A stretch of 64,000 nucleotides of DNA, from contig NZ_CP160402.1 in assembly GCF_040730185.1 (NCBI RefSeq), forward strand, positions 6,262,001 through 6,326,000, in the 5' to 3' direction. The DNA is from Streptomyces sp. Je 1-332 (lineage in GTDB: Bacteria; Actinomycetota; Actinomycetes; Streptomycetales; Streptomycetaceae). Position 1 is the stretch's first letter. Each line of letters starts with the position of its first letter. Of the stretch, positions 504 through 18,363 are shown one piece after another. The position numbers were made by a program, and so were the translations under genes. The notes beneath the pieces were generated by a model. It worked only from the letters and a program-made list of their open reading frames with translations, was not told the DNA's origin and made no database searches.

Positions 504-2481
504 GGCCCCCGTGTTGCTCGGAATGCCCGAGCTGCCCGCCCGGCCCGGAGCGGCGGCGGGTGCCCCGTACTCCGTCGTCCTGAGCTTCCCGCCGCTCGTC
601 GAGCTCAGCTTCGGCCGCTACTTCCCGTCCCTCGCAGTGCTCGGCGGCTTCCTCACCAGCCGCGGCGTCGGCTCCCACCAGTGGGACCTCAATGAGGAGT
701 TCGCCCTGCACCTGCTGGAGCCCGCACACCTGGAGGCCGCCGGGCAGGGCCGTCCGACCGGGATCGAGGGCGACTTCGTCGAGGAGATGAGCGCCGTCGC
801 GGGCCGCTGGCTGAAGGAGGGCCGTGACCAACTGTTCGATGCGGAGGGACGTCACGACTTCGCTTCGGTGACCGGACCCGCGTACCTGCTCACCGCGCTT
901 GCCCGGCCCTACCTCATCGACCCGGAACCGGAGTGGCTGAGCGACCCCTGCCTGCTCGACTCGGACCGCACTCTGGTGTATCGCCGCTACTTCGACAGCC
1001 TCGACCTCGCCGCTCGCATCCCGGCGGACGCCGCCCTCTTCGGGATCTCCCTGCCGATGGGTCCGCAGCTCGTCCCCGGGCTGATCCTGGCCCGCGAGGT
1101 CAAGCGCGTGAGACCCGACATCAAGGTCGTGCTCGGCGGCCCGACGGTGTCGCTGATGGACGATGAACTGCTGACCACCCTGCTGACCGTGCACCGGCAG
1201 ATCGACGCGGTCGTCCGTTACGACGGTGAACTCCCCCTCGCCACATTGTGCAAGCAGGTTGCGCCCGGTGGCGCCTGGCAGCCGACGCTGGTGCCGGGCG
1301 TCTCCGCTCTGACCGGCGAGAACGGTGTCGTGCACGCCTCTCCGGGGCCGGGCCTCCACCCGAACGTACTGCCGCCCGCGGAGTACGACCCGCAACTGCT
1401 GGGCCGTCTCGCCGACGCCGAACTCGGCATCGTGCAGGCGCGCGGCTGCTACTGGGGCAAGTGCGACTACTGCGACTTCGTCGAGCAGTACGACGGAAGC
1501 CCCGCCTACCGGGGCAGGTCAGTGAAGTCCTTCGTCGCGGAAATCGAGCACCAGGTCGACACCCACGGCGTCCGACAGTTCGAGCTGATCACCGAGTCCA
1601 TCCCGCCGGCCTTCTCCCGCCGTTTCTCCCAGGAAGTGCTGGACCGGGGGCTGAACATCTCCTGGAGCTCGTTCGCCATGGTGGACCGGCGGTTCGACGC
1701 CGAGACCCTCGAACTCATGGCCCGGGCCGGCTGCGCGTTCCTCGTCATCGGCATGGAGACCACCAACACGCGTGTGCTGAAGCTGGTCCACAAGTCCGCC
1801 GACCGAGAGGAGAACCTCCGCTTCATCCGGGACGCGCACCGGGCGGGAGTGAACCTGCGGATCAACCTCATCCCCGACCTGCCCTCCACGACACTGACCG
1901 AGGCAATGGAGGCTCTGGACGACATCTCCCAGGTCGCGGAGTGCGTGGAGGCGTTCTCCATCTTCCCCTTCGAAGCCACCCGGTCCTCCGAAGTGGGCCG
2001 CAACCCGGAGAAGTTCGGCCTGGTCGTCGCGGAGAACGCGTCGGGTCTCGCGAACCAGGCCCAGTACGCACTGAACCACCTGGGCAACATCGACCCCGCC
2101 ATGACCGACGAGGAACGCGGTCGGGTCCACCGCACCTACCAAGACTTCGCGATCCGGCACGGCTCCGGGCACATGCGGGAGACGGGTCCAGGCTTCCTGT
2201 CCGAACTGCCGGACGATGACCAGCTGTTCAGGTTCGCCGTCGGCCACCTCGACGTCCTGCCACGCGGCCATGAACTGCTGGTCACTCAGGTGCTGCGGCG
2301 CGAGAGGACCGTCCTGCCGGCCGCCGTGGCATCGCGCCTGACGCCGTGGCTGAGCGGATCGCCCCTCTCACTGCGGGAGCTGACCGAGGTGTTCGGGGAG
2401 GCGGCGGCACACCAGGTGCTGACGGCGCTGATCGAGTCGCGGTTGCTGACGGCCGCTCCGGCGAGGGCCCTCGTCGCGTGA
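496..2481 (+). CDS. B12-binding-type radical SAM enzyme
   Basis: 661 residues starting at an ATG that overlaps the previous stop. The N-terminal ~270 residues have the Rossmann-like pattern of cobalamin-binding radical SAM proteins (FPPL near the start, then GISLPMG and KVVLGGPTVS), though no DxHxxG cobalamin ligand motif is evident. The radical SAM cluster motif is CYWGKCDYC, a CX4CX2C spacing rather than the usual CX3CX2C, similar to the CxWGxxxxC forms in RiPP-maturation C-methyltransferases. The last ~70 residues look like a small winged-helix tail. The family performs C-methylation or other radical chemistry on peptides and small molecules. In this operon, next to an E1 enzyme and peptidases, a peptide substrate is the likeliest inference. 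Confidence 0.85.
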   Translation: MPEAPVLLGMPELPARPGAAAGAPYSVVLSFPPLVELSFGRYFPSLAVLGGFLTSRGVGSHQWDLNEEFALHLLEPAHLEAAGQGRPTGIEGDFVEEMSAVAGRWLKEGRDQLFDAEGRHDFASVTGPAYLLTALARPYLIDPEPEWLSDPCLLDSDRTLVYRRYFDSLDLAARIPADAALFGISLPMGPQLVPGLILAREVKRVRPDIKVVLGGPTVSLMDDELLTTLLTVHRQIDAVVRYDGELPLATLCKQVAPGGAWQPTLVPGVSALTGENGVVHASPGPGLHPNVLPPAEYDPQLLGRLADAELGIVQARGCYWGKCDYCDFVEQYDGSPAYRGRSVKSFVAEIEHQVDTHGVRQFELITESIPPAFSRRFSQEVLDRGLNISWSSFAMVDRRFDAETLELMARAGCAFLVIGMETTNTRVLKLVHKSADREENLRFIRDAHRAGVNLRINLIPDLPSTTLTEAMEALDDISQVAECVEAFSIFPFEATRSSEVGRNPEKFGLVVAENASGLANQAQYALNHLGNIDPAMTDEERGRVHRTYQDFAIRHGSGHMRETGPGFLSELPDDDQLFRFAVGHLDVLPRGHELLVTQVLRRERTVLPAAVASRLTPWLSGSPLSLRELTEVFGEAAAHQVLTALIESRLLTAAPARALVA

Positions 2482-2571
2482 GCCTCCGCCTCCAACCTGC
2501 CCGTACCCCGTACTCAACATCGCGAACGTCCGGGACGCGTCCGACGACCGATTCGACGACCGAGGAGAACC

Positions 2572-3324
2572 ATGACCACGGGTGAGACCCTCCAGCAGCC
2601 TGCGGCCGTCCCGACAGCCGCCGCCCGGCACATCGCCCACGCCCACCTCACCGAAGCGGCCTTGGGCTCCGTACGCGACTGGTACGGAGCGGAACACGCC
2701 ACGCCGCTGCACCTCACCGACTTCCTGGTGCCGGAGCTGGCCACGCGGCTCTCCGCCGCGCTGCGTGCCGTACCCACCTGGGCGCGGCACGCCTCCTTGA
2801 TCGAGAAGGGCCAGGAGCCGACCGAGTACTGGGGAGAGGAGGCGGACACGGCGACGGACGCCACCGCGTCCCAGTTCCGGGTCCCCGACATCCACGAACT
2901 CTTCGCCGACGGCGTCCTGCCGCCGGAACACCGCCGGACTCTGGAGGAGTTCTTCGTCTTCGCCGTCCTTTCCGACACCTTCCGGGACTGGTTGAGGGCC
3001 GGAACGGGCCTGCGCCTGCGCAAGCGCACCGCCATGGAACTGGCCGCCTACCGGAACTCCGACGGGCTCGGCGACCACCAGGACCTCATGCCGGGGCGGG
3101 TGTTCGCCGTCAACTTCTATCTCGACGAGGGCTACCGGGCCGAGCACGGCGGACGGCTGGGCTACCGCAACGGACGGGGCGAGGAGTTCCGTGCCGCACC
3201 GCTCTTCAACAGCCTTTCCATCATCCCGATCCGCGAGGACTGCTGGCACTGGGTCGAACCCTTCAGCGGTGACCGGGTCGGCCGGTACACCATCGCCATG
3301 GCGCAACACCTGGAGGAGAGCTGA
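2572..3324 (+). CDS. 2-oxoglutarate/Fe(II)-dependent oxygenase, full length
   Basis: 250 residues. GAGGAG lies 5 bp before the ATG. The core fold motif is H-Q-D in GDHQDLMPG, then NFYLDEGY, and a distal His in DCWHWVEP followed by an Arg in VGRYTIA. This gives a complete facial triad and 2-oxoglutarate anchor. It is a clear paralogue of the truncated first gene and shows what that gene has lost: about 95 N-terminal residues. Having two non-identical copies in one operon suggests two successive oxidations or oxidation at two sites. No precursor-like small ORF with an obvious start is seen in the 90 bp between this gene and the radical SAM gene. Confidence 0.85.
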   Translation: MTTGETLQQPAAVPTAAARHIAHAHLTEAALGSVRDWYGAEHATPLHLTDFLVPELATRLSAALRAVPTWARHASLIEKGQEPTEYWGEEADTATDATASQFRVPDIHELFADGVLPPEHRRTLEEFFVFAVLSDTFRDWLRAGTGLRLRKRTAMELAAYRNSDGLGDHQDLMPGRVFAVNFYLDEGYRAEHGGRLGYRNGRGEEFRAAPLFNSLSIIPIREDCWHWVEPFSGDRVGRYTIAMAQHLEES

Positions 3325-3362
3325 CCCGGGAACGGCGCGGTACGGTACGGCTGATCCCTGCG

Positions 3363-4376
3363 GTGGCCGTCCAGGAGACCGCGCGGGAGACGCTGTTGAG
3401 CCTGGGGGACCGTCTCCTGCGCATCCAGGGGGCCACCCTCCAGGCTCCGCTGCGCGACGCCCTGCGGAGCCTGCGCCGGGGCACCGACGCCGAGGCGCTG
3501 GCCGATGCCTGGGGGCGGAAGGAGGCCACCGCCCTGCTCACGGAGCTCGACGCCCTCGGCTGGCTGACGTCCGAACCCCGCGACGCGCTGGGCGAGTTCG
3601 CGGGCGAGACGTACCAGCGGCAGCTGGATTACCTGGGCCTGTTCACCCCGGACACGGCCGCCGCGCAGCGTCGGCTGTTGTCCGCCCGAGTGGGCATCCT
3701 CGGACTGGGCGGACTGGGCGGGATCGTGGCCCAGCACCTGGTGGCCGCCGGGATCTGCACTTTCCGTCTCGTCGACCACGACACGGTGGCCCGGCACAAC
3801 CTCAATCGGCAGTTCACGTACGGTCCGTCGGACGTGGGCAGCCCCAAGGCCGACACACTGGCCCGGTACCTGCGGACGATGCGTCCGGACGTGGACGTCA
3901 CCACCCATCGGCGGCGGATCACCGACGTGGCCGGCCTGGAGGCGGTGTTCGGTCCTCGCCGGAGTCTCGACCTGCTGATCATCGCCGCGGATTCGCCTCC
4001 CGGGCTCCCGGACACGGTCGCGCGCTGGGCGTCCGGAACGGGAACCCCGTTCACCATGGGGGCCGTTGGCGTGGGGGTGGGCTTCTGGGGTCCGCTCGTC
4101 GATCCGGCCCACGGCGGCTGCTGGACCTGTTTCGAGCGGGACCGGCGGGCGGCACTGACCGCACGGGAGCGCCTGATCGAGGACCACTCGGCGGACCCCG
4201 CTCCCTTCTCCTTCGGCCCCAGCAATACCGCTGTCGCGGCCATGCTCGCGCATGACATGATCCAGTTCCTGTGCGGTGAGAGGTGTCCCACCGTGGGTCG
4301 GCGGGCGGCACTGGACTTCGCACGACAGCGCATCACTCACACCACAGAGAGTACGTGCACGTGTCAGACGATCTGA
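3363..4376 (+). CDS. MccB-like E1 adenylating enzyme (ThiF/MoeB fold)
   Basis: 337 residues, GTG start; no strong Shine-Dalgarno and no better in-frame start between it and the previous stop. Residues 1-105 form a small alpha/beta N-terminal domain like the peptide-clamp region of MccB and related RiPP E1 enzymes. QRQLDYLG then leads into the nucleotide-binding glycine loop GLGGLGG (residues 114-120), and VDHDTVARHNLNRQF carries the conserved Asp and Asn/Arg of ThiF proteins. One CXXC (C253, C256) and a C-terminal CTC could bind zinc. Unlike housekeeping MoeB/ThiF it sits with oxygenases, an exporter and peptidases. Family knowledge suggests it adenylates a peptide C-terminus, or an Asn/Glu side chain, for cyclisation or P-N bond chemistry; the exact reaction is not predictable. 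Confidence 0.8.
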   Translation: MAVQETARETLLSLGDRLLRIQGATLQAPLRDALRSLRRGTDAEALADAWGRKEATALLTELDALGWLTSEPRDALGEFAGETYQRQLDYLGLFTPDTAAAQRRLLSARVGILGLGGLGGIVAQHLVAAGICTFRLVDHDTVARHNLNRQFTYGPSDVGSPKADTLARYLRTMRPDVDVTTHRRRITDVAGLEAVFGPRRSLDLLIIAADSPPGLPDTVARWASGTGTPFTMGAVGVGVGFWGPLVDPAHGGCWTCFERDRRAALTARERLIEDHSADPAPFSFGPSNTAVAAMLAHDMIQFLCGERCPTVGRRAALDFARQRITHTTESTCTCQTI

Positions 4377-5917
4377 TAGCCGAACCACAGGCCGAGAAAC
4401 CTCGTGCGGCCGAGAAGCCTCGTGCGGCCAAGAAGCAGAAGCCCTTCAAGGGCACCGGGTTCCTGCGCCTGTGGACGGGAGAATCCGTCTCGCTCGTCGG
4501 GACCGAGATCACCTTCATGGCTATGGGCATCATCGCCGTGACCACTCTGGCCGCAACTCCATGGCAAATGGGCCTACTTGAAGCCGCCGAGTCGGCGGCC
4601 GTACTGCTGCTGGGGCTCTCGGCCGGAGTGTGGGCGGACCGGTACGAACGCCGACGCATCATGCTGGTCGCGAACCTGGCGCGCAGTGTGCTCGTGCTGA
4701 TCGTTCCGGTGCTGTTCTGGCTGGATCTGCTCACCATGGGAGCGCTGTACGCCGTCGTCTTCCTCGTCGGAGCGCTGAGCCTGCTGTTCGACAGCGCCAT
4801 GTCCGCGTACCTGCCCAGGCTGCTGCCGCGGAGCCAGCTGGAGCGGGCCAACTCGTGGATGGAAGGCAGCGCTTCGGTTGGCATGGTCGCGGGGCCGGGC
4901 CTCGCCGGCCTCCTCGTGCAGATCGTGAGCGCACCGATCGCCCTGATCGTCGACAGCGTCAGCTATCTGGTCAGCTACGCGACGCTGTCCCGCCTCCCGA
5001 AGGCCCCGCCCTCGGAGGATCCGGCCGACCCGGCGGAGGACGCCGAGGAGGTCAAGGCGGTCAAGGCGGACAAGGGCACGGACGGAACCGCCGCGTCCGA
5101 CAGGACCGTCGGGCCCGCACACGAGACCCGACCCGCGCGGGCCGAGACCGTGCCCGTGCCCGTGCCCGCGTCCGTGGGGGAACAGCGGGAAGCGCCTGCC
5201 GTCCCGCCTCAGGAGACCCACCGCGCGCAGGTCCTCAAGGGGCTGCGCGTATTGCGTCACGACCCCGTTCAGCGACCGATGACGCTCGCCGCCGCGCACT
5301 TCAACATCTTCCACTCGATGTTCTTCGCGGTGAACGTCCTGTTCCTCCTGCGAGTCCTCGACTTCAGCCCCGGTCTGCTGGGCGCCACCAGCATGGCGGG
5401 AGGTGTCGCCGGACTGGTCGGTGCCTCCTGCACCCCCTTCCTCACCCGGAAGCTCGGCCAGGGGCCCGCGCTGATCGTGGTGTACGCCGTCCCGGGGCTG
5501 GCCGCGGTCCTGGTGCCGCTCTCGGCGGGTACCGGGCGGGCGCTCGCCGTCGTGCTGGTGTCCGTCTCGACGTTCGTCTACACCTTCGCGGTCGTGGTCA
5601 ACCTCGTCATCAGCGACACCGTCAAGCAGACGCTCGTACCAGACCACCTGCTGGGCCGGGTCACCGCCTCTACGCGCTTCATCAGCTGGGGCGTCCAACC
5701 GGTCGGCGCGCTCCTCGGCGGCTGGCTCGGCACCCGGTTCGGCCTGGTCGAGGTGATGGTGACGGCCTCCATCGGCCTGTCCGCCTCGGCGCTCTGGCCT
5801 CTGCTCAGCCCCGTGCGCAGGCTCATCACCCTGCCCGACGACGAATCCGACGACGACACGCTTACGGCGGACGAGGCGGACACCGAACCAGGCGAAGGAA
5901 CCGGCAGGAGCGTCTGA
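4361..5917 (+). CDS. MFS exporter of the EntS-like (MFS_3) type
   Basis: About 518 residues from the GTG at 4361, which overlaps the E1 gene by 16 bp. An upstream in-frame ATG at 4283 would lie deep inside the E1 gene and add a His-rich stretch with no membrane helix, so it is less likely. FLRLWTGESVSLVGTEIT begins the first helix, and ADRYERRR is the loop 2-3 signature of major facilitator transporters. Between the two six-helix halves there is an unusually long, charged, low-complexity cytoplasmic loop at about residues 200-290, rich in D/E/K then P/V. As the only transporter in the operon it is the probable product exporter or self-immunity pump. Confidence 0.85.
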   Translation: MSDDLIAEPQAEKPRAAEKPRAAKKQKPFKGTGFLRLWTGESVSLVGTEITFMAMGIIAVTTLAATPWQMGLLEAAESAAVLLLGLSAGVWADRYERRRIMLVANLARSVLVLIVPVLFWLDLLTMGALYAVVFLVGALSLLFDSAMSAYLPRLLPRSQLERANSWMEGSASVGMVAGPGLAGLLVQIVSAPIALIVDSVSYLVSYATLSRLPKAPPSEDPADPAEDAEEVKAVKADKGTDGTAASDRTVGPAHETRPARAETVPVPVPASVGEQREAPAVPPQETHRAQVLKGLRVLRHDPVQRPMTLAAAHFNIFHSMFFAVNVLFLLRVLDFSPGLLGATSMAGGVAGLVGASCTPFLTRKLGQGPALIVVYAVPGLAAVLVPLSAGTGRALAVVLVSVSTFVYTFAVVVNLVISDTVKQTLVPDHLLGRVTASTRFISWGVQPVGALLGGWLGTRFGLVEVMVTASIGLSASALWPLLSPVRRLITLPDDESDDDTLTADEADTEPGEGTGRSV

Positions 5918-5951
5918 GCCGAGCGGAACCGACCCACGACAGGAGCCGCAC

Positions 5952-7232
5952 GTGCCCTTGAACCCTGAAGTCCGTACGCTTCCGGGCGGACTGAGGCTGA
6001 TCGTCTCCAGGGATGACACGGCTCCGGTCGTGTCCGTCTGCCTCTGGCTCCCGGTCGGTTCCCGCGACGACCCCGCCGGAAAGACGGGACTGGCCCACCT
6101 CTTCGAGCACTTGATGTTCCAGGGCTCGACGCACGTCCCGGCGAACGGGCACACCGCGGCTATTGAGGACTGCGGAGGATTCACCAATGCCTCCACGGGC
6201 TTCGAACGCACCACCTTCTACTCGGTCGTCCCGGCGGGAATGCTGGAACTGGTGCTGTGGCTGGAGGCGGACCGACTGGGCGGCATGCTGGACGCCCTCG
6301 GCCCCGAGAGCCTCGACAACCAGCGCGACGTCGTCCTCAACGAACGCCGCGAGCGTTACGACAACGTGGCGTACGGGACGGGCTGGGAACAGCTCCTCAC
6401 CATGTCCTTCCCTCCGGGGCTCCCCTTTCGCGACCTGCCCGCGGGACGCCCCGAGGACCTGGCGACCGTGACGGAAGACGACTGCCGTGCCTTCTTCCGC
6501 CGCCACTACCGGCCGGACCGGGCACTGCTCTGCGTGGTCGGCGACGTCGATCCCGATGCGGTGGCCGCACTGGTGGAACGCCATTTCGGGCATCTGCCGC
6601 CACCCCCGGCCGAGGTCACCCCGGCGGCGCGGCCCGGATGTGCGCGGCCACCGGCCGAGGCGCGGCGGCGCAGTGCCGAGAGGGTGCCTGCCCCGGCCTT
6701 CATGGCCGCGTACCAGCTTCCCCCGCACGGCGAACCGGCCGGGGAGGCCGCCGACCTGGCGGTCACCCTCCTCGGCGGCATGAGCAGCAGGGGGCTCCAT
6801 CACCGGCTGGTGCGCGGCGACCAGCTCGCGCACCGGGCCAGGGCCTCGTTGATGCCGCTGTACGCGGCACCCTCCCTGTGCAGGCTCGACGTGCGTGCCC
6901 TCCCCGGAGCCGATCTCGCCCTGGTCGAGAAGACGGTGGACGAGGAGACGGAGCGGCTCGTCGGGACGGGCGTGACCGCAACGGCGCTGAAGGGTGCCCA
7001 GGCGCAACTGCGCCGCGACTGGCTGGACCGGCTCGCCCATCCCGGCAGCCGGGCCGAGGAGTTGTGCGCCCAGGAGGCGTACCTCGGAAACGCGGCCGGG
7101 GTCGACGGACGGCTGGAGCGGCTTTCGGCGATCACCATCGACGAGGTGCGTAGCGCGGCTTCCACGTACCTCACGCCGGGGAACCGTGCGGTCCTGACGT
7201 ACGAGCAGTACGAGGACGGAGCACCCCTGTGA
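5952..7232 (+). CDS. M16 family zinc metallopeptidase, catalytic subunit
   Basis: 426 residues, GTG start with an AGGAG 8 bp upstream. The inverted zinc motif HLFEH (HXXEH) is intact within GLAHLFEHLMFQG. The third ligand fits the Glu in VVLNERRERYDN, about 75 residues later. This subunit lacks the RxxxxY-type C-terminal substrate motif found in the partner. M16B enzymes work as heterodimers that enclose small unfolded peptides, as with AlbE/AlbF in subtilosin or PqqF/PqqG in PQQ synthesis. The expected role here is removal of a leader or trimming of the modified peptide. It ends with a 4-bp GTGA overlap with the next gene. Confidence 0.9.
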   Translation: MPLNPEVRTLPGGLRLIVSRDDTAPVVSVCLWLPVGSRDDPAGKTGLAHLFEHLMFQGSTHVPANGHTAAIEDCGGFTNASTGFERTTFYSVVPAGMLELVLWLEADRLGGMLDALGPESLDNQRDVVLNERRERYDNVAYGTGWEQLLTMSFPPGLPFRDLPAGRPEDLATVTEDDCRAFFRRHYRPDRALLCVVGDVDPDAVAALVERHFGHLPPPPAEVTPAARPGCARPPAEARRRSAERVPAPAFMAAYQLPPHGEPAGEAADLAVTLLGGMSSRGLHHRLVRGDQLAHRARASLMPLYAAPSLCRLDVRALPGADLALVEKTVDEETERLVGTGVTATALKGAQAQLRRDWLDRLAHPGSRAEELCAQEAYLGNAAGVDGRLERLSAITIDEVRSAASTYLTPGNRAVLTYEQYEDGAPL

Positions 7233-8617
7233 ATCCCGAATCTGCCACCGTTCCGGCGCTCCCGGCACGACCCCGTCCGCCCCGCCCTGCCCTGCTGCGG
7301 GCCAAGCCCTGGCGGTTTCCCACCGTCCACCACGCCGAGCTGGCCAACGGCCTCACCCTGCACACCTGCCACCGGCCTGGTCAGGAGGTGCTGAGCATCG
7401 AGATCGTCATCGGTGTCCCCCTCGCGGTCGAACCGCGTGAGCTGGAAGGCATCATGGGCATCACGACCAGGGCCCTCGCGGAGGGCACCCCGGCACTGGC
7501 CTCGCTCGACTTCATCCAGGAGCTGGAGCATTGCGGGGCCACCCTGGGGGCGGGGGCGGAGCACGCGGGCATGCGTGTCACTCTCGACGTCCCCGGCACC
7601 CTGGCCGAACGAGCCCTCTGCCTGGTGGTGGCCGCGTTGCGCGAGCCGCTGTTCCCGCACCGGGCGATCAGCCGGCTGGCCAGGTCGCAGGCCGCCGCCC
7701 ACCGGCGCCATCTCGCGGATCCCGAGCGTCGGGCGTCCCTCGAAATACACCGCGCCCTCTTCGACTGCCGGGATCGGCGTTCCCGGCCCGCGCTCGGTGA
7801 CGCCGAGTCCGTGCTGCGGGTGGACCGGGACACCGTGGTCGATTTCCACGCACAGTACGCCCGGCCGGGAGCGACCACCGTGGTCGTCGCCGGGGACCTG
7901 GCCCGGTTCGATGTCGAGGCGATGCTGCACAGGGTCCTCGGCGGCTGGGAGGGCGATCCGTACGTCGTTGCGGTGCCGCAGACTCCACCGGTCCCCGAAG
8001 TGCCGGGTGTCGTCCTGGTCGACCGGCCGGGCGCGGTCCAGACGCGACTCGTGCTAGGCAGGGTCGCGCCAGGTGCCGCGGACCCGGCCTGGGACGCGAT
8101 GCTGATCGGCAACCATTGCCTGGGCGGCTCGGTCAACGCACGTCTCGACAGGGTGCTGCGCGAGCGGAAGGGCTACACGTACGGTTTCCACAGCCGGCTG
8201 GTCGGGGTGGTCGACCACTGTCTGGCGGTGGTGACGGGCGCGGTGGAGACTTCCGTCACCAGCGCGGCCCTTACAGACATCGGGACGATCCTGGGCGCGT
8301 TGGCGCGGGAGGGCCTCACTGATGCCGAGCACCGGGCCGCGCTCGCACAGATCGTCGACGCGGCTCCTTTGCGCTACCTCGTCCCCGCCAACGTCGCCGA
8401 GGAGATCGCCATGATGGTGCTCGACGGGCGCGACCCGACGGATCTCAGCGACGTGTTCCCACGGGCGGCGGAGGTCACTGCGGCGGAGGCGTCGGCGGCG
8501 CTGCGCTCCGCCTTCCCGCCGCACCCCGTGGCAACTGTGGCGGTCGGTGACGCGTCGCGCATCGAAAACGGGATACGGGAGTGCGCCGAGGCCCCCGTCA
8601 CAGTCCTGCGCAGCTAG
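7229..8617 (+). CDS. M16 family peptidase, non-catalytic partner subunit
   Basis: 462 residues, start codon overlapping the previous stop (GTGA). The M16 fold is recognisable, for example TRALAEGT, FIQELEHCGATLGAGA and the C-terminal LGGSVNARLDRVLRERKGYTYG. The zinc HXXEH motif is absent: the equivalent region reads GIMGITTRALAEGT. It does carry the R...GYTYG motif (R and Y that position substrate in M16 dimers). The pair therefore divides its active site between two chains, the standard M16B heterodimer arrangement. It is the last gene of the operon; the downstream strand is non-coding for several hundred bases. Confidence 0.88.
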   Translation: MNPESATVPALPARPRPPRPALLRAKPWRFPTVHHAELANGLTLHTCHRPGQEVLSIEIVIGVPLAVEPRELEGIMGITTRALAEGTPALASLDFIQELEHCGATLGAGAEHAGMRVTLDVPGTLAERALCLVVAALREPLFPHRAISRLARSQAAAHRRHLADPERRASLEIHRALFDCRDRRSRPALGDAESVLRVDRDTVVDFHAQYARPGATTVVVAGDLARFDVEAMLHRVLGGWEGDPYVVAVPQTPPVPEVPGVVLVDRPGAVQTRLVLGRVAPGAADPAWDAMLIGNHCLGGSVNARLDRVLRERKGYTYGFHSRLVGVVDHCLAVVTGAVETSVTSAALTDIGTILGALAREGLTDAEHRAALAQIVDAAPLRYLVPANVAEEIAMMVLDGRDPTDLSDVFPRAAEVTAAEASAALRSAFPPHPVATVAVGDASRIENGIRECAEAPVTVLRS

Positions 8618-8963
8618 CCCAGCGAGGTGAAGGGGCCCCGCTTACCGACGCGGGTCGTCGTGGGGGCGAGGTGGAGGTCGTCGGCATCCGGGCGGCACCT
8701 CGCAGGCTCCCCGGGCTGCGTGGCCGAGCGTCAAGGTGGGGCTTGAGTTCCTTAGGTGCCCCGCGCTCCCGGTGTGGCGGCGCCGCAGAGCTACTGGTCC
8801 GTTATAGACCCCAAGGAGTCTGGTCGGGAAGTGCTATTCCTCGGCGAGAAGCGAACTTACGTATGCGGCGGTCGTTCGGCGCTCACCTCCCGACCCCAGA
8901 AGGACCGGGATGGTTCCGAGCCCGCTGCCCCGCTGCCCCGCGGTCCGCGCGCCGACGTACGTG
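8618..8963. other. Intergenic stretch without a convincing gene
   Basis: About 345 bp separate the peptidase operon from a minus-strand gene. The part from about 8745 to 8900 is visibly less GC-rich than its surroundings. A plus-strand open frame from the GTG at 8756 begins with plausible composition (WSVIDPKESGREVLFLGEKR) but runs into the antisense of the next gene with low-complexity sequence, so it may be a fragment of a former gene rather than a working one. No terminator with a clear stem was found. Confidence 0.4.
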
Positions 8964-9488
8964 CTACGAGATCTCGTCGGCGCGCGTCCTCGCGGAATCG
9001 GAGGGTTGCCGGGGTTCCGGCAGACCGGGAGGGGTGGAGGAGCTCCGCAGCCCCCACGGTCGGCGGAGTCCCATCGCCTTCTGGGCCGCGGACACCATGT
9101 CGTGGCGCCCTGTTGACGCCGCTGCCAGCGCCTCCGCTCGCCCGGACGCGGACCCCGCGTCCTTCACTCGGCGCTGAAGACGAAGGAGCGCCTCGCCGGC
9201 GCGCACCACGTCGGGGGGCGACAGCAGACGCAGCCGCGTCAGCTGATTGCGCATCTCGCCGTACTGCGCGTCCATCGCCTCGGCCGATGAGATGTCAGGC
9301 GGCGTCGCCGACACCTTCGCGAGGTCGGAATGCTGCCAACTCGCCGCTAGGAACGCGACGAACGCGTCCGTCAGGGCGTCGCGCGCCCATTGACGTTTCT
9401 CCCTCCGTCCCCCGACGACCGTCGTCACCACCAACGTGGCGGCACTCGTCACCGCAGCGGCCCACGCCGCGTACCCACCCGCGTCCAT
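8964..9488 (-). CDS. Small membrane-anchored protein of unknown function
   Basis: 174 residues from the ATG at 9488; GGAG stands 2 bp before it and AGGA about 10 bp before it, and a GTG one codon upstream is equally possible. Longer in-frame extensions run into the divergent gene. Residues 5-27 (YAAWAAAVTSAATLVVTTVVGG) form one membrane helix followed by RREKRQ, which places the rest in the cytoplasm. The remainder is helical with charged heptad-like segments. I do not recognise a family. It is transcribed divergently from the 1610-residue NTPase protein with about 130 bp between starts, so shared control or joint function is possible. Confidence 0.65.
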   Translation of the reverse strand: MDAGGYAAWAAAVTSAATLVVTTVVGGRREKRQWARDALTDAFVAFLAASWQHSDLAKVSATPPDISSAEAMDAQYGEMRNQLTRLRLLSPPDVVRAGEALLRLQRRVKDAGSASGRAEALAAASTGRHDMVSAAQKAMGLRRPWGLRSSSTPPGLPEPRQPSDSARTRADEIS

Positions 9489-9621
9489 CACTCCAGTATT
9501 CCTGGCCGCGTCCCGCTGCCCAACCTGAGCAAACATCTCCTGCCCCACCTTGCAGCAACGGTCGGCCAAGTGGTCGCGAACACCGAGTGGTTGGGAGGAG
9601 ATGGTTCTACGATCGGGCGGC

Positions 9622-12600
9622 ATGACGCGCCTCTTTGAGCAGGACGGTACCGGCACCGTGGACGAGGAGGAGGTGAAGTGGCGGGAACGGGTGGCGCAGA
9701 TCGTCGAGCGTGAGCTGGGCACGCCCGTGAAGATCACATACCTGGACGACTTCGCCGACGGATTCACCGCCGCCCGGGTCACCCGCTGCGACCTGATGGG
9801 TTACGGCCGGGCCCGACTGGAGGGCCAGTACATCCTCAAGGTGTCGCGTGACCCCGACGACCGTCAGAACGAGGCGCACCGGCTCTTCACCGAGCGGCTC
9901 ACCTCCTTCGCCGACCGGCGCGTGCCGTCCCTGGAGCTCTCCGGACACGACGAACAGCTCCGCGTCGACATCTACAAAGTCGCCGGAGAGACGCGCGGCG
10001 TGCGCCCGGCCCGCGTGGCGACCACTGCGGTCTCGATCGATGCCCTGTCGGAAGTGAGCCGCGAACTGCTGGAAGCGCAGTTCGGGCACCACGCCGGTGG
10101 TGGGCTCATGACCGTCCGCCAGACTCTCGAAGCATGGATGGGAGCGGGCTTCCTCGGCGGCCGGAAGGGGGACGCGCTTCGGGAGGCCCGGCGGTTGGCC
10201 GGCAGCGCCGGCACCACGTTTGTTTTCACCACGCAGGTGTTGCCCGACCCCGTATCCGTACTGGAACAGGACAACGAGCTGTCCGGCGAGGTCGAGTTCG
10301 TCATGCGGGGCTATAACCACGGCGACCTGCACACGCGCAACATCCTTCTGGACGGGGTGAGTGCGGACGAGGTGGGGTACTGGCTCATCGACATCGCCTC
10401 GGACAGTGACGCGCCGCTCCTGTACGACCACGCCTATCTGGAGACGGCCACCCTGCTCGTGGGGCAAGAGCTGCTGCGGCGACAACTCCCGCTCGAAATC
10501 CTCCAGGACTGCGACCTCCGGGACCCGAGAAGAGCCGTACCCCTCGCCTGGGAGGGAAACGTCAGGCTCGTCGAGAGCATCCGCCGGGGCAAGGACGAAG
10601 CGATCGAGGCGCTCCAATCAGCCCGTAAGGGATCGCTCCGGCACCAGTACCTGGTCGGGCGGCTCGGCGCCGCGCTGAACTACGCGGCCAAGCGGAAGTC
10701 ACCGGACCAGCAGCGCGTCACGGCATACCGGCTGGCCGGATGGGCCACACACCTCCTCCTCACCGAGTACCACCCGACGCTCCTGGAACGGGTTCTCGCC
10801 GACGCCCACCAGCCGCAGACCCTCGCGCCCAGCAGGGCGGCCGCGGCAGCCAGCGCGAAGGCGGCGGCCGCGGAGGAAATGGTGGAACAGGTGAAGCCGT
10901 TCGTGGCCGACACCCACAACGGGTTCGACCGCTTCCTCGTCGTGGAGAACGGAGTGACACACGAGGACCTCGCCTGCCTGCCCGACCACCGCTGGTCGGT
11001 GATCATCGACCTCAACCCCGACAGCGAGACGACCGGCCTTGCCCACGGATTCGTTCGGGAGACGGCCGAGCACCAGATCGTCGTCTCGGGGCGGCACAGA
11101 GGGCCCGCGCCCGGCCGCAACACGGTGTCGTGGCTGATGGCGGGTGGCTGGGAGCGCCTGGGCGAACAAACGCCGGCGGACTTCCGGAGCTGGCGCTCGA
11201 CGTATCAGGACCTCGTCCGAGAGGTCTTTGAGCGGCACAGCAGGAACAGTGTCAACCGTGCGGCAGCCGTCATGTGCCTCACCGCGGGGGACGAGCCAGA
11301 CCAACGCGCGGAGCGCGTACTGGAGTTCATCGACGATCTCTACGAACCGCCGGTGAAGCTCCTCCGCGCCAGCCCCGGCGACGGACGGTTCGAGGCTCTC
11401 CTCAACGTCTTCGCGGACAACGGAGCCCTGCCGCGCCTCGAACGACTCGCCTCGCTCCCTGGCGCGAAAGGACCGATCCGTTTTTCCCGCCCCGGGCTCG
11501 CCGAACTGGAAGCCGACCTCGTCGTGCTGCACTCCCAAATCCTGGACGAGGAACTGCACGACCAGGCGGTCGACGCGTTCTGGAGGGGTCGCCCGGCGAA
11601 CTGGCTGGACCTCGACGCCGGTCAGGACGTTCCCCGGGCGCTGCAGCCCTCGTTGCAGACTGCGATCGCCGACGTCCTGGGCCGCCAAAGCTCGGCCAAC
11701 TTCGAACTGTTCCACGCGCCGGGCGCGGGCGGCACCACGCTGGCCCGCCGCATCGCCTGGGACCTGCACCGCGAACATCCGGTGCTGCTGCTGCATCACT
11801 ACAGCCCAGACACGGTCGAGCGCGTCGACAGCGTCTACCGGCGCACCGAGCGGTCGCTCGTGCTGGTGGCGGAGAGCGCCGACATGGGGCAGAGCGACCG
11901 GGAGGACCTCTACCGCAAGCTGCACGAGCGCAACACCCCTGTCGTGGTGCTCTGGGTGACGCGGAGTAACGACTCGGCGCCGGACAACGGGGGCGAGCGC
12001 ATCAACAACGTCATGTACCGCCTGGCCGAGCCGATGACCCGGGAGGAAGCGCGGGAGTTCCGTACCAGCTTCGGCCCCCGCGCCCGCTCTCCCAAGGCGA
12101 AAGCGGCAGTGGAGGCGCTGGTCCCATACGGCGTACCAGACCAACAGGTGACTCCGTTCTACTTCGGTCTGTGCGCCTTCGAGACGGAATTCTCAGGAAC
12201 GGCGAAGTACGTCGAGAGCCACGTCAGCGAGTTCACCGAGGTGCAGCGACGCGTGGCCTCCTACCTGGCCCTCGTGACCCGGTACGGACAGATCGGGCTG
12301 CCGTACTCGCTTGTCCACCGGTGGATCACCGGAGAGTGGGGCGGGCATGCCGCGTCCCTCGCGGAGTACACGGCCGACCTGGAGAACATCCTCGGCCCGG
12401 ACCTTCGTCACCTGGTCGTCGAGGACGGCCGACAACTGCGCATCCTGCACCCGTCCATCGCCGACACCCTCCTGGAGGTGCTTCTGGAGGCGAAGACGGG
12501 GGACGCCAGGTGGCCGTCGAGGCTGGCGAACACGGCCATCGAGTTGATTGGGCAGCTGGTCGGCCACCTCGGATCCGCCAACGTGGAGACGCGGGCGATC

Positions 12601-14454
12601 CTCGACAACCTCTTCATCCGTCGCGACAGATCAGGCTCGGGAACGCACCAGTTCGCCGAACTGATCAGAGCCTTCGGCACCGGTCAGCAGCCGGGCCGGG
12701 AGCAGGCGTACCGAATCTTCCAGGAGCTCACGCGCCGGTGCTCCGAAGAGCCGCACTACTGGCTGCACCTGGCTCGCTACCACCTGGACTTCAAAAAGCA
12801 CGAGGATGGGCAGGCGGAGAAGTTCATCAACCGGGCGATCGAACTCTCCAAGGAACAGGATCACGTGCAGTTCCACGCCCTGGGGATGCTGCACCGGGAG
12901 TGGGTGTACGCGGGGCTGCGTCAATTCAGTTCTGGTACCGGCCGCGAGGCTGCCCTCATCGAGTACGTACGCGACCGGTACGACGCGGCGCTCAGCGTGT
13001 TCGCCAGGGCCCGCAAGCTCAAACCCGAGGACGAGCACAACTACGTCTCGGCGATCCAGATGATCGTCAAGGTCCTCAGCAAGCTGGTCAGGGTTTCCCT
13101 GAACATGAGCCTCGTCGACCTCCTGACCGCGGGCGGCGATGTCGGGAGCTGGGCGGACGAGCAGTTGAGGGTGGCGCTCTCGCTGCTGGACGAGTGCGAG
13201 TCGGTACGCCCCGACAGCGCCGACAGCCGGTACCTCCAGCGCTGTCGTGAGGAGATCGAGGTCGCGCATGGCGAGATCGAGACCATGGTCCGGGCCTGGC
13301 GCGACGTGATCGTGAACTCCCGCAGTCGCTCGGGGCTGGCGCTGGTCCTGGCCCGCGAGTTCCTCAAGGAGCAGGGCCGCGACTGGAAGGAAACGCCCAC
13401 CGAGGTCTTCCGGACCGTCGTGGAGTTCTTCGACGCGGCGTTCGAGGAACGTGGCGATCTCGCCGACCACGACGTGGAGTTGTGGTTCCGCTGCTACCGC
13501 AGACTTCCGGAGTACGACGACCTCGCCGCCCTTGAACGCCTCTCGTTCATCGCCGGATCGCGTACGAGTCCGATGTGTAGCTACTACCTGTACGTCGTGC
13601 ACTTCCTGCGCTGGCTGAACCAGGAGGAGTACTCGCAGGACGAGGCGCTGCGCCACTGCAACGAGGCCGCGCGGCTCAACCCCGGCCGCGACAGGCGGTG
13701 GAACTACGAGTGGGTGGCGAAGGGCGTGTCCGACGGCCATGCGGCGGCGCGTCTGGCGAACTTCAGGGAGCTCGGGGAGTACCGGCCCACGAGTCGGGAC
13801 TGGCAGCTTTCCGGGCAGGTCTGTCAGCGCGTCCGCGGCGTGGTCCGGCAGATTGAAGGACAGCGGTCGGGGCAGGTCGCCGTGGAGGACGGCGACATGA
13901 AGGCGTTCTTCGTACCCCGTGAGGACTTCACGAACTTCGAGCATCAGGGGAAGGTGGTCGAGTTCGATCTCGGGTTCGCCCATGACGGACTGAGGGCCTG
14001 GCGCATGACGCTGGCCAAGGAGCAGAGGCTGTTCCGCAATGACGGGGTACGACTTCCGGATGTGGCTTTCCCGCCGGTGCCGCTGCCCTCCCAGGTCGGT
14101 CCGGCGCGACAGGTGAATTCCGCAAGAGTGGTGCCCTCACCCTCACCGGCGCCACGTCCGAGGCCCGCGGCGGCGACGCCGGAGGTTCGCCAGGAGGCCC
14201 GTCGGCGGGCGGAGGCCGACGGCCTGGAGGAGGCAGGCCGGTTCGTCATCGGCCATCTGCTGTCCCCCGAGACCGGCGGACTCGATGTCACCTCCTTTCA
14301 GGTTGGCAAGGCCCTCACGGACACCCTCGGAAAGGAGAGTTATCAGCAGCTGCGCGCCGGCTCCTCGCTCGGTGCCCTCGTCGAACGGCTCGGCTTTACC
14401 GTGCGACCTACGGCGAACGGACAGTTCGTGGTGAAGCCCGCGACGACAGGCTGA
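9622..14454 (+). CDS. Large kinase-NTPase-helical repeat-OB-OST-HTH protein, SAMD9-like
   Basis: 1610 residues from the ATG at 9622. An ATG at 9601 right after GGGAGGAG is the alternative and adds seven residues. Residues 30-400 resemble an aminoglycoside-phosphotransferase/choline-kinase fold: Lys73 (YILKVSR), HGDLHTRN at 233-240 with catalytic Asp235 and Asn240, and LIDIA with Asp257; all look competent. Residues ~430-690 are an alpha/beta region. A P-loop GAGGTTLAR starts at 701 and a Walker-B-like LVLVAES at 746. The GGTTLA form of the loop and the order NTPase, then TPR-like helices (~1000-1390), then OB-like strands (~1404-1460), match the published SAMD9-family architecture. Residues 1533-1608 (VGKALTDTLG, LGALVERLGF) resemble an OST-HTH/LOTUS RNA-binding domain. 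Function is inferred: an NTP-driven sensor in antiviral or stress response. Confidence 0.75.
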   Translation: MTRLFEQDGTGTVDEEEVKWRERVAQIVERELGTPVKITYLDDFADGFTAARVTRCDLMGYGRARLEGQYILKVSRDPDDRQNEAHRLFTERLTSFADRRVPSLELSGHDEQLRVDIYKVAGETRGVRPARVATTAVSIDALSEVSRELLEAQFGHHAGGGLMTVRQTLEAWMGAGFLGGRKGDALREARRLAGSAGTTFVFTTQVLPDPVSVLEQDNELSGEVEFVMRGYNHGDLHTRNILLDGVSADEVGYWLIDIASDSDAPLLYDHAYLETATLLVGQELLRRQLPLEILQDCDLRDPRRAVPLAWEGNVRLVESIRRGKDEAIEALQSARKGSLRHQYLVGRLGAALNYAAKRKSPDQQRVTAYRLAGWATHLLLTEYHPTLLERVLADAHQPQTLAPSRAAAAASAKAAAAEEMVEQVKPFVADTHNGFDRFLVVENGVTHEDLACLPDHRWSVIIDLNPDSETTGLAHGFVRETAEHQIVVSGRHRGPAPGRNTVSWLMAGGWERLGEQTPADFRSWRSTYQDLVREVFERHSRNSVNRAAAVMCLTAGDEPDQRAERVLEFIDDLYEPPVKLLRASPGDGRFEALLNVFADNGALPRLERLASLPGAKGPIRFSRPGLAELEADLVVLHSQILDEELHDQAVDAFWRGRPANWLDLDAGQDVPRALQPSLQTAIADVLGRQSSANFELFHAPGAGGTTLARRIAWDLHREHPVLLLHHYSPDTVERVDSVYRRTERSLVLVAESADMGQSDREDLYRKLHERNTPVVVLWVTRSNDSAPDNGGERINNVMYRLAEPMTREEAREFRTSFGPRARSPKAKAAVEALVPYGVPDQQVTPFYFGLCAFETEFSGTAKYVESHVSEFTEVQRRVASYLALVTRYGQIGLPYSLVHRWITGEWGGHAASLAEYTADLENILGPDLRHLVVEDGRQLRILHPSIADTLLEVLLEAKTGDARWPSRLANTAIELIGQLVGHLGSANVETRAILDNLFIRRDRSGSGTHQFAELIRAFGTGQQPGREQAYRIFQELTRRCSEEPHYWLHLARYHLDFKKHEDGQAEKFINRAIELSKEQDHVQFHALGMLHREWVYAGLRQFSSGTGREAALIEYVRDRYDAALSVFARARKLKPEDEHNYVSAIQMIVKVLSKLVRVSLNMSLVDLLTAGGDVGSWADEQLRVALSLLDECESVRPDSADSRYLQRCREEIEVAHGEIETMVRAWRDVIVNSRSRSGLALVLAREFLKEQGRDWKETPTEVFRTVVEFFDAAFEERGDLADHDVELWFRCYRRLPEYDDLAALERLSFIAGSRTSPMCSYYLYVVHFLRWLNQEEYSQDEALRHCNEAARLNPGRDRRWNYEWVAKGVSDGHAAARLANFRELGEYRPTSRDWQLSGQVCQRVRGVVRQIEGQRSGQVAVEDGDMKAFFVPREDFTNFEHQGKVVEFDLGFAHDGLRAWRMTLAKEQRLFRNDGVRLPDVAFPPVPLPSQVGPARQVNSARVVPSPSPAPRPRPAAATPEVRQEARRRAEADGLEEAGRFVIGHLLSPETGGLDVTSFQVGKALTDTLGKESYQQLRAGSSLGALVERLGFTVRPTANGQFVVKPATTG

Positions 14455-14568
14455 CAGGATCCCGGAGGCTGAGGGGCACGTGCGATGCGAGGCCGTGGCC
14501 AGCTGGCGTGGAGATCCGGTCCCGCCCGACATCCGCCAGGAGCTGTGTGTGCAGCTCTGGCATGTCGG

Positions 14569-15021: not shown

Positions 15022-15342
15022 TGGGAGCGGGCTCGTGGAGGGGAGCTGGTCTTGGCAGCCTGTTCCGCCCGAAGAGGAGGACGGGCCGTTGGTTGTGAGG
15101 CTCGTTTGACGCTCTGGGTACCGGCACGCGGGTCAGCGAGCCGTGAAACAGGTGCTGACCTGGTCTTTTCCGTGACTCGTTCAGGCGACACCTTCCCGAT
15201 GACGCATCACGCGGAGTACATCGCGATCCCGGACCCGGCGGCCCCGTAAGCCTCAACACGCTGACCGCCAACGGCAGTTGGCATGGCACACTACTCAACA
15301 CCAGCCGCCCCTCCCGCCTTTCCGTGATGATGGAGTCCGCCC

Positions 15343-16929: not shown

Positions 16930-17793
16930 ATGACGACCGTGACGACGCAGGAGAAGACCCAGGCCGCTCAGGCCCAGGAGGACCTCGTCGAGCAGGCTCT
17001 CGCGGATCCGTCCTCCATCGCGCCGAGGGACGCGCGAGAGATCGGCAAGCGGTTCTTCGACCGGCTGACCCAGCTGGAGGAGGGTACGCACGAGTACCAG
17101 TACGTGCGTAACACCCTGATCGAAATGAACCTCTCCCTCGTGCAGTACGCGGCTTCCCGGTTCCGGCACCGTGGCCAGGAGGAGATGGAGGACATCGTTC
17201 AGGTCGGCACGATCGGCCTGATCAAGGCGATCGACCGGTTCGAGCTGACCCGCGAGGTCGAGTTCGCCACCTTCGCCGTCCCCTACATCACCGGCGAGAT
17301 CAAGCGGTTCTTCCGCGACACCAGCTGGGCCGTGCACGTGCCGCGCCGTCTGCAGGAAGCCCGCATCGAACTGTCCAAGGCCACCGAGGAGTTGCGCACG
17401 CGTCTGGGGCGCAATCCCTCCACGGCCGAGCTGGCCGAGCTGATGCAGCTGGAACCGGCTGAGGTCGCCCAGGCCCAGATGGCGTCCAACGGCTACAACG
17501 CCGCCTCCCTGGATGCCGCGGTGATGAATGGAAGTGAGGAATCCGACACGGCGCTGGCCGACTTCATCGGCTTCGAAGAGGATTCCTACGAGCTGATCGA
17601 CAACTTCAACTCCCTGGCCCCGCTCATCGCCGGCCTCGACGAGCGGGAGCGCACGCTGATCCATCTCCGCTTCGTCGAGGAGCAGACCCAGGCGCAGATC
17701 GGCGAAGTGCTGGGCATCTCGCAGATGCACGTCTCGCGGCTGATCACCCGCGTCGTGGCCAAGCTCCGCACCGGCCTGATGGCCAACAACTAG
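16930..17793 (+). CDS. RNA polymerase sigma factor, SigB/SigF family
   Basis: 287 residues from the ATG at 16930 preceded by AGGGGCAGGG; an in-frame ATG 81 bp upstream falls within the promoter. Region 2 is intact (RHRGQEEMEDIVQVGTIGLIKAIDRFE, then EFATFAVPYITGEIKRFFRD), region 3 follows (WAVHVPRRLQEAR) and region 4 has the helix-turn-helix QAQIGEVLGISQMHVSRLI. Members direct general-stress, osmotic and developmental genes in Streptomyces. The preceding RsbW-like kinase and the following STAS protein are its predicted inhibitor and anti-inhibitor. Downstream the dps gene carries a matching promoter. Confidence 0.93.
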   Translation: MTTVTTQEKTQAAQAQEDLVEQALADPSSIAPRDAREIGKRFFDRLTQLEEGTHEYQYVRNTLIEMNLSLVQYAASRFRHRGQEEMEDIVQVGTIGLIKAIDRFELTREVEFATFAVPYITGEIKRFFRDTSWAVHVPRRLQEARIELSKATEELRTRLGRNPSTAELAELMQLEPAEVAQAQMASNGYNAASLDAAVMNGSEESDTALADFIGFEEDSYELIDNFNSLAPLIAGLDERERTLIHLRFVEEQTQAQIGEVLGISQMHVSRLITRVVAKLRTGLMANN

Positions 17794-17881
17794 GCAGGTC
17801 CGGCTCCTCCGGATAGGCGAACTCAGCTTCTCCGGAAGGCAGGCCCGCCCCTCCGGATAGTCAGGTCCCGCTCCTGCGGAC
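17794..17881. repeat. Four 22-bp imperfect tandem repeats directly after the sigma gene stop
   Basis: Units 17794-17815, 17816-17837, 17838-17859 and 17860-17881 share the pattern GNCAGGTCC-GCTCCTCCGGA with several mismatches. They start on the first base after the TAG. A 22-bp period is not a multiple of three, so this is not a duplicated coding segment. Confidence 0.75.
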
Positions 17882-17887
17882 CCGGCA

Positions 17888-17920
17888 CCGCCCTCCGTCA
17901 CCCTCAGTGGCGGAGGGCGG
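17888..17920 (+). terminator. Stem-loop terminator after the sigma factor gene
   Basis: CCGCCCTCCG at 17888-17897 pairs with CGGAGGGCGG at 17911-17920 around a 13-nt loop. There is no T-run, which is normal for Streptomyces terminators. It separates the sigma gene from the STAS gene. Confidence 0.7.
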
Positions 17921-17958
17921 GGTGCATTGAGGGCAGACTCTGTGCCAGGGTGCCTTTC

Positions 17959-18363
17959 ATGACATCAGGCAGACCGAAAGTACGTCTCGACCAGCAGGAA
18001 CGCGTGGCGATGATCACGCTCCACGGTGACGTGGACCTGCACGATCTCACCGAGGTCACCGGCGCCCTCACGCAGGCGCTGTCCGACATCACGACGGACG
18101 CCACCCTGATCGGCCTGTCGGAAGTGACCTTCGCCGACAGCACCTTCCTCAACCAGCTCCTCCAGACGTTCTCCGAGCACACCGCACAGGGCAGGCCGCT
18201 CGTCCTCACCGGACCCCTGCACTCGGCCGTGCAACGACTGCTGCAGATCACCGGCACCGACGCGATCCTGCCACTCGCCCCCACCGTGCAGGAGGGACTG
18301 CGGCAACTCCGAGCTGCCTCCCTTTCCACGGCAAGCGACCAGGGGCCCGAAGTCGGCATCTGA
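17959..18363 (+). CDS. STAS-domain anti-anti-sigma factor
   Basis: 134 residues from the ATG at 17959, AGGG 8 bp upstream; a GTG three codons earlier is the alternative. One STAS domain: VAMITLHGDVDLHDL, then LSEVTFADSTFLNQLL, where the Ser of ADS is the site normally phosphorylated by the RsbW-type kinase. Unphosphorylated protein would sequester the kinase at 16397 and free the sigma factor. It is separated from the sigma gene by repeats and a hairpin and probably has its own promoter. Confidence 0.88.
   Translation: MTSGRPKVRLDQQERVAMITLHGDVDLHDLTEVTGALTQALSDITTDATLIGLSEVTFADSTFLNQLLQTFSEHTAQGRPLVLTGPLHSAVQRLLQITGTDAILPLAPTVQEGLRQLRAASLSTASDQGPEVGI

Follow-up and report, generated by a model that had tools for sequence, protein, structure and literature searches.

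The window analysed here, a stretch of 64,000 nucleotides from Streptomyces sp. Je 1-332 (G000:C1:6262001-6326000; single-contig genome, 8.27 Mb), carries a two-gene cassette that is probably a horizontally mobile, STAND-like immune receptor with a kinase as its effector. The large gene encodes a protein in which a kinase of the APH/choline-kinase fold occupies the N-terminal slot that in human SAMD9 holds a tRNA-cutting effector, and the small, divergent gene encodes a transmembrane (TM) protein that is inherited with the large protein.

Assignment to the SAMD9 family

The large protein belongs to the SAMD9 family, whose chassis it has in its SIR2-like, P-loop, TPR and OB parts. When a profile of seven rows (A1) was compared with the PDB sequences, SAMD9 chains were returned at E 1.1e-31 over profile positions 419-1135, and the only other match at E <= 0.01 was one TPR design (0.0035). 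Predicted models align to human SAMD9 across 486 and 736 residues; the helical repeats and the OB barrel are seen in a model with a predicted local distance difference test score (pLDDT) of 86.9, which aligns up to SAMD9 residue 1589. The order and fold NTPase-TPR-OB are those of the family, with sequence homology over the core from the SIR2-like domain to the TPR part. A preliminary description of this locus, made from the DNA sequence alone, had named this SAMD9-like order, the helical repeats and the OB-like barrel, all of which were recovered; it overlooked the SIR2-like domain (residues ~415-650), which is internal, between the kinase and the P-loop domain.

The P-loop domain matches Pfam nSTAND_NTPase5 (1.7e-8; 34.8 bits, barely above the cut-off of 34) and so falls within the STAND profile; this is the single copy above the cut-off in the genome, with three further matches at E <= 0.001 below it. 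The P-loop, given earlier as GxGGTTLA, was found as HAPGAGGTTLA. In alignment A2, composed of the window protein and 44 chosen kinase-fronted relatives (45 rows), the position of the Walker-A lysine is Gly in 44/45 rows, Ala in 1/45 and Lys in 0/45, and His698 upstream of the P-loop is invariant (45/45). The canonical STAND lysine is thus missing, and GGT/S in place of GKT/S is combined with the upstream His, a combination that the accessible text of Mekhedov 2017 (PMC5445408) gives as a signature of the SAMD9 family and for which it considers binding of nucleoside triphosphate (NTP) without hydrolysis. Since the lysine occurs in none of the 45 rows, NTP may be bound by the P-loop domain but not hydrolysed; the earlier term "NTP-switched" needs this caveat. 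The N-terminal AlbA_2/tRNase domain of the family is absent, and a TCAD9 kinase is present instead. As kinase-fronted bacterial proteins are counted as SAMD9 members in the accessible text of Mekhedov 2017, with AlbA_2 lost in some, the missing AlbA_2 excludes the tRNase-bearing type only.

Gene calls and feature map

The open reading frame (ORF) of the large gene extends from 9550 to 14454 on the plus strand. Its conserved start, ATGACGCGCCTCTT, was identified from the divergent intergenic region aligned in five loci; it is the ATG at 9622, from which 1610 residues are encoded. The TM gene runs from 8964 to 9488 on the minus strand (174 residues, start at 9488). The genes therefore do not overlap and are separated by an intergenic region of 133 bp; an overlap of the TM ORF with the large gene was rejected on the strength of the conserved starts at 9488 and 9622. 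Four comparisons put dN/dS of the TM gene at 0.20-0.36, and three put that of the large gene at 0.20-0.25, so that both genes are taken to be real and neither is a chance ORF. The named relatives nearest to the large gene are in Streptomyces. The features are the following:

8886-14508, no strand: cassette of TM gene and SAMD9-like kinase gene, with borders common to other Streptomyces loci (blastn)
8964-9488, minus: type a partner gene for a small protein of 174 aa, whose residues 7-25 form an N-terminal hydrophobic segment
9489-9621, no strand: divergent intergenic region, 133 bp, between the two start codons; aligned in 5 loci
9622-14454, plus: SAMD9-like protein, 1610 aa; ATG start, ORF extendable to TTG at 9550
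9667-10809, plus: APH/choline-kinase-fold kinase domain (TCAD9), residues ~16-396, with K73, H233-G-D235, N240 and D257
10864-11571, plus: SIR2-like domain, residues ~415-650
11575-11976, plus: STAND-like P-loop domain (nSTAND_NTPase5), residues 652-785, from Pfam and residue counts
11713-11745, plus: Walker A without lysine, inside the nSTAND_NTPase5 domain
12511-13677, plus: TPR-like helical repeats (predicted model), within the stretch aligned with SAMD9
13828-14013, plus: OB-fold domain, a beta barrel in the model, within the alignment reaching SAMD9 residue 1589
14179-14439, plus: probable OST-HTH/LOTUS tail (predicted model and profile match to relatives)
15095-15250, plus: right island border, a degenerate copy of an rlmD-like 3' gene end, with a dyad at 15096-15114

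Kinase domain

The kinase domain has the fold of the APH superfamily and looks active. Its residues K73, H233, G234, D235, N240 and D257 are invariant in all 45 rows of A2, so the catalytic Lys, the HGD...N motif and the metal-binding Asp are present throughout. Lys73, Asp235, Asn240 and Asp257 had been proposed in the preliminary description, whose numbering is reproduced by the ATG at 9622. The match to Pfam TCAD9 (PF19974; 2e-10) reaches 40.8 bits, barely above the gathering threshold of 40, and spans profile positions 259-340 of 429 only; with this match and the intact active-site residues, the earlier suggestion that a kinase replaces the usual N-terminal effector was upheld. The stretch ahead of the chassis measures 358-435 residues in AlbA_2 proteins and 610-658 in kinase proteins. 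According to the accessible part of a review (PMC13245274), the AlbA-type domain of human SAMD9 is a tRNA anticodon nuclease; the kinase therefore sits in the slot of a known effector.

Small membrane partner

A type-a TM gene adjoins the large gene in all six close loci (in pieces in L053); no Pfam match was obtained for the protein, either with the window copy or with that of L063. Among the 11 loci with proteins of ~1600 aa that were examined (window, L042, L043, L044, L050-L053, L063-L065), the large gene adjoins in 11/11 a small gene whose product has a hydrophobic segment near its N-terminus; this small gene is of type a in six, of type b in three and of type c in two. A single homologous TM family in all 11 loci was rejected, as comparison of types a, b and c by hhalign gave probabilities of 0.4, 0.2 and 0.2 percent (shallow profiles). 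Type b is also frequent without the large gene (95/246 genomes; 10 short loci inspected). Because no homology between the types is detectable and type b is common alone, the link of types b and c with the large gene rests on adjacency. As background, 25/279 called genes in 20 loci, partners included, and 2/50 within the window encode proteins of <=300 aa that have a single hydrophobic segment, beginning within the first 80 residues.

A search with type a in 392 Streptomyces genomes gave matches at E <= 0.001 in 16, of which 10 were below 1e-30 and six were weak (2.5e-5 to 6.4e-4). In all ten strong cases, own genome included, an APH/TCAD9 kinase is the neighbour of the TM gene or a member of its gene group, and these kinases stand on three different backbones. 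Three are SAMD9-like loci (own, G387, G383). In six (L108-L113), the TM gene directly adjoins a large protein of 1667-1909 aa as called (that of L112 runs off the contig); TCAD9 is found in 6/6 of these proteins (E 6.5e-72 to 5.9e-142), the backbones give weak, sub-cut-off matches to AAA/NACHT/nSTAND3, and VMAP-type genes are near (confirmed by Pfam for L108 and L111, recognised by BLAST similarity in the remaining four). In the last, L107, a type-a TM protein 85% identical to that of the window belongs to a same-strand group with an APH-type kinase (APH above cut-off; TCAD9 just below, at 38.9 bits; HGDxxxxN present), and an HD-domain gene is placed between kinase and TM gene. The L107 group (5889-10606, minus strand) consists of the APH/TCAD9-like kinase, a radical SAM-like ORF recognised by eye, the HD-domain gene and the type-a TM protein. 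Its occurrence with APH/TCAD9 kinases on three backbones indicates that the TM protein goes with the kinase rather than with the receptor, which gives substance to the partner role that had been suggested for the small divergent gene. In all six longer relatives (L066, L068, L045, L046, L047, L067), a gene with a NUDIX match is directly downstream of the large gene (Pfam-confirmed in L066, 13323-14297).

Distribution and mobility

The chassis was found in 15/392 Streptomyces genomes, own included (8/295 in an overlapping earlier sample). Eight of the 15 carry the kinase-fronted form of ~1600 aa (G383 in pieces), one the AlbA_2 type and six a longer kind of ~2000-2080 aa (G174: 1719 as called, split). 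In the phylum, TCAD9 exceeds its cut-off in 1/396 genomes, namely the present one; 28 others give E <= 1e-5 below the cut-off.

In blastn comparisons of the window with L050, L051, L052, L053 and L063, identity of 85-93% begins at 8886-8997 and ends at 14458-14509. Outside the cassette, only short matches were obtained (8745-8834, inverted, with L050; 14529-15229 at 77% with L050; 15055-15238 at 76% with L053). These sharp common borders indicate that the two genes travel together. L051 and L053 are 98-99% identical from an rlmD-like 3'-end repeat at 8183/8188 to ~15540 and are unlike to the left of that repeat.

Near the cassette are repeats whose translation, FPMTHHVECVAILEPA, is the C-terminal end of an RlmD/RumA-like rRNA methyltransferase. 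The rlmD-like gene of L050 matches TIGR00479 above cut-off (E 7.8e-59), and that of the own genome has tRNA_U5-meth_tr and TRAM domains. The intact own gene lies at G000:C1:6253305-6254702 and the degenerate duplicate at 15095-15250 of the window, bounding an island of ~22.5 kb; the whole genome has a single exact copy of a dyad, TGACGCTCNNNTGACGCTC, at 6254779, and a copy with one mismatch lies at window position 15096. Besides the cassette, the island holds PIN-domain, ABC-type ATPase, radical SAM, MFS and M16 peptidase genes, and no integrase was found among the eight island genes scanned. Inside the island, the radical SAM, MFS transporter and M16-type peptidase genes at 496-8617 of the window resemble a cluster for a peptide natural product.

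In L050, the cassette comes after the intact rlmD-like gene (7150-8523) and is followed by an AbiEii gene and, near 16464, by a duplicate; in L053, 3'-end duplicates flank the cassette on both sides; L051 has the intact rlmD end to the left, its contig ending 0.7 kb to the right of the cassette; and L063 has two duplicates to the left with an RHH-PIN pair between them. An rlmD-like 3' end or its duplicates thus lie beside the cassette in 5/6 close loci (duplicates in four; none in L052), and the duplicates are apparently the trace left by integration into the 3' end of a gene. On the left side, L125, L050 and L051 are collinear as far as the rlmD-like gene. G010, which has the upstream M16 gene and lacks the cassette, was rejected as an empty site: its DNA after the M16 gene matches nothing in the window, and hence it offers no clean empty site. 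The variability that had been expected of a defence gene is seen in this patchy, mobile distribution; neither conservation in core positions nor a lack of STAND or OB homology was observed.

Exchange of N-termini and the C-terminal tail

The same chassis occurs with AlbA_2, TCAD9, Metallophos (P0157) or PNP_UDP_1 (P0237) at its N-terminus, which suggests that the slot is exchangeable between kinase, AlbA_2, nucleosidase and phosphoesterase domains. A FastTree phylogeny of the chassis (133 rows: 66 AlbA, 40 kinase, 1 + 1 others, 25 unlabelled; 108 labelled) requires at least 4 changes of N-terminal label, 3 being the minimum for four states; with its long branches (P0247, P0237, P0238) and 25/133 unlabelled rows, it is taken only as showing more than one exchange. 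TCAD9 is also N-terminal on NB-ARC/AAA-TPR proteins, of which two were scanned: P0044 (39.4 bits, just below cut-off) and P0054 (41.2 bits, above, with a cyclase domain). The N-terminus of P0157 is a calcineurin-like phosphoesterase and that of P0237 a nucleoside phosphorylase, both on SAMD9-like chassis. P0054 joins the TCAD9 kinase to a guanylate/adenylate cyclase, an AAA/STAND-type ATPase and TPR, and there are several more such proteins by precomputed Pfam annotation.

The large protein ends in a probable OST-HTH/LOTUS tail; the model shows a domain of helices that closes with a beta hairpin at the C-terminus, and pLDDT stays >80 as far as residue 990 of the modelled slice. Relatives P0232 and P0235 match Pfam OST-HTH (PF12872) C-terminally (6e-6 and 1.5e-5), and the tail profile matches relatives with Pfam OST-HTH at a profile-profile probability of 78 (E 1.8e-5). 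An earlier comparison (probability 97.8) was discarded, as the P0233 tail was in both alignments; without the P0233 tail, the value is 78. The window tail itself has no match to PF12872, and 1/12 tails matches (3.2e-6); tail profiles gave no significant match among the PDB sequences and no chain named LOTUS. The distant kinase-fronted relatives P0023, P0024 and P0029 lack the tail. While the OB fold has good support, the OST-HTH-like end of the preliminary description is kept as probable only, and the RNA sensing proposed there is no more than a possibility.

Mode of action and alternative explanations

As an immune receptor, the protein would recognise an invader-derived or damage signal (protein or RNA) through its C-terminal TPR/OB/OST-HTH part, whereupon the lysine-less P-loop module, kept closed by bound nucleotide, would open or oligomerise. 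The freed kinase would then phosphorylate a host component, such as a translation factor, a tRNA, a small metabolite or the TM partner, and growth would stop before the phage finishes its cycle. Because the TM protein follows the kinase and not the receptor backbone, it would most likely tether or restrain the kinase at the membrane, or be its substrate. The homology to SAMD9, the kinase at the front of other backbones and other domains at the front of the chassis, the mobility of the cassette, the conflict-type genes near it and its relatives, and the TM partner all speak for an immune receptor with a kinase effector.

Several points weigh against an immune function. Since the substrates of APH-fold kinases are mostly small molecules, the protein may serve metabolism or regulation instead. 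No defence gene is among the five neighbours scanned in the window, and no PADLOC model matches either protein. Three of the six long relatives share one neighbourhood, with a neighbour gene that, from its N-terminus, we take to be methionyl-tRNA synthetase-like; these relatives are thus less variable. The cassette is at the same chromosomal site in the window, L050 and L051, which therefore do not represent three independent placements, and in the longer relatives the NUDIX gene replaces the TM gene (6/6). No antiphage, kinase or binding measurement for this branch was found in the literature, with thin coverage of subscription journals and bioRxiv.

Three other explanations were weighed. A kinase acting as growth-arresting toxin, with the TM protein as its inhibitor in a selfish toxin-antitoxin-like unit and defence as a by-product, would account for the small adjacent gene in 11/11 loci, for the inheritance of the cassette with sharp borders and for the PIN and AbiEii genes in the islands. 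It is nevertheless rather unlikely, since a receptor half made up of P-loop, TPR and OB is an elaborate one for a toxin-antitoxin kinase to have, the TM protein is found with VMAP-linked systems too, and the long relatives have NUDIX in place of the TM gene. A membrane-linked kinase switch for Streptomyces stress or differentiation, not immunity, is improbable: the top fold matches of the kinase are small-molecule kinases and sigma-70-type and SAM-methyltransferase genes come next on the right in the window, yet these genes lie outside the island border at ~15250 and are unmatched in the 12 other loci compared, and the chassis is present in so few genomes of the genus (15/392). That the kinase fold merely binds nucleotide or a partner in a scaffold protein is improbable as well, for although, according to the accessible text of Kaur 2020 (PMC7159879), catalysis is disrupted in most S/T/Y kinase domains of related ternary conflict systems, the same text singles out APH-type domains as active, and the active-site residues are invariant here (K73, HGD, N240, D257; 45/45 rows).

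With the mobile immune receptor as the favoured explanation, a broader and more tentative possibility is that the APH-fold kinase and the TM protein form a portable effector module, mounted on SAMD9-type receptors, VMAP-linked STAND receptors and an HD-domain gene group, and that the SAMD9 chassis would here kill or arrest the cell by phosphorylation at the membrane and not by tRNA cleavage. Kinases as effectors of conflict systems have already been predicted in outline; an experimental demonstration for this family was not found in the literature searched.

Neighbouring genes

An AbiEii gene adjoins the cassette in L050 and an RHH-PIN pair in L063; the PIN gene of the window's island is elsewhere in the island, not beside the cassette. 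An AlbA_2-type relative (L048, 351-16379) lies in a defence island with type I restriction-modification, AbiU-like and PD-T4-6-like genes. L066 has a GmrSD gene next after the NUDIX gene, two genes from the long relative. SIR2-family (1168-1893) and Macro-domain (17593-18111) genes are found in L043 at ~5 kb on either side of the gene pair.

Relation to known systems and significance

In SAMD9 and SAMD9L of animals (human PDB 9zjr), the SIR2-like part, the P-loop (STAND-like and without lysine), the TPR and the OB follow one another as in the window protein and have the same folds, with sequence homology; the human proteins start with SAM and tRNase-SA (AlbA), whereas the window protein starts with the APH-fold kinase and has in addition the probable OST-HTH end and the TM partner gene. 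In Avs5 (SIR2-STAND antiphage filaments, PDB 9jap, 9nc9), SIR2 is the N-terminal effector; the SIR2-like domain of the window protein stands between kinase and P-loop, and an OB fold comes after the repeats. The APH, choline kinase and LxmK kinases have fold and catalytic residues in common with the window kinase but are enzymes of metabolism, resistance and synthesis of ribosomally synthesised and post-translationally modified peptides (RiPPs), not receptor fronts. TCAD9-STAND proteins beside VMAP genes share the kinase family (PF19974) and the adjacent small TM protein family; their backbone, with weak sub-cut-off NACHT/nSTAND3/AAA matches, differs from the SAMD9 chassis. Kaur 2020 (PMC7159879), which treats VMAP ternary systems, does not use the word TCAD9 in its accessible main text.

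The accessible text of Mekhedov, Makarova and Koonin 2017 (PMC5445408) describes bacterial and especially actinomycete members without AlbA_2 and with an N-terminal "Ser/Thr protein kinase"; these probably have the present architecture. SAMD9 proteins of bacteria with a kinase front have thus been in print since 2017, and the family is not new. That accessible text makes no mention of the APH fold, the TM partner, the OST-HTH tail, the mobile cassette or the other fronts. In the accessible parts of the literature searched, no description was found of the kinase of SAMD9-like proteins as an APH-type one, of a TM partner, of its tracking of the kinase across backbones or of an rlmD island (Kaur 2020, Kaur 2021, PMC12169576 and PMC12931631 included). 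Three findings look new: the APH-fold domain in the tRNase slot of SAMD9, the TM gene tracking APH/TCAD9 kinases over three backbones, and the cassette at the rlmD-like 3' end or its duplicates in 5/6 close loci.

Human SAMD9 and SAMD9L are antiviral as well as disease proteins, and their regulation is hard to study. In a bacterial relative with the same core and another effector, the receptor half can be investigated independently of tRNA cleavage. The TM protein, following the kinase over different receptor backbones, is a concrete and testable partner, and the island at the rlmD 3' end is a place in which more such cassettes may be sought.

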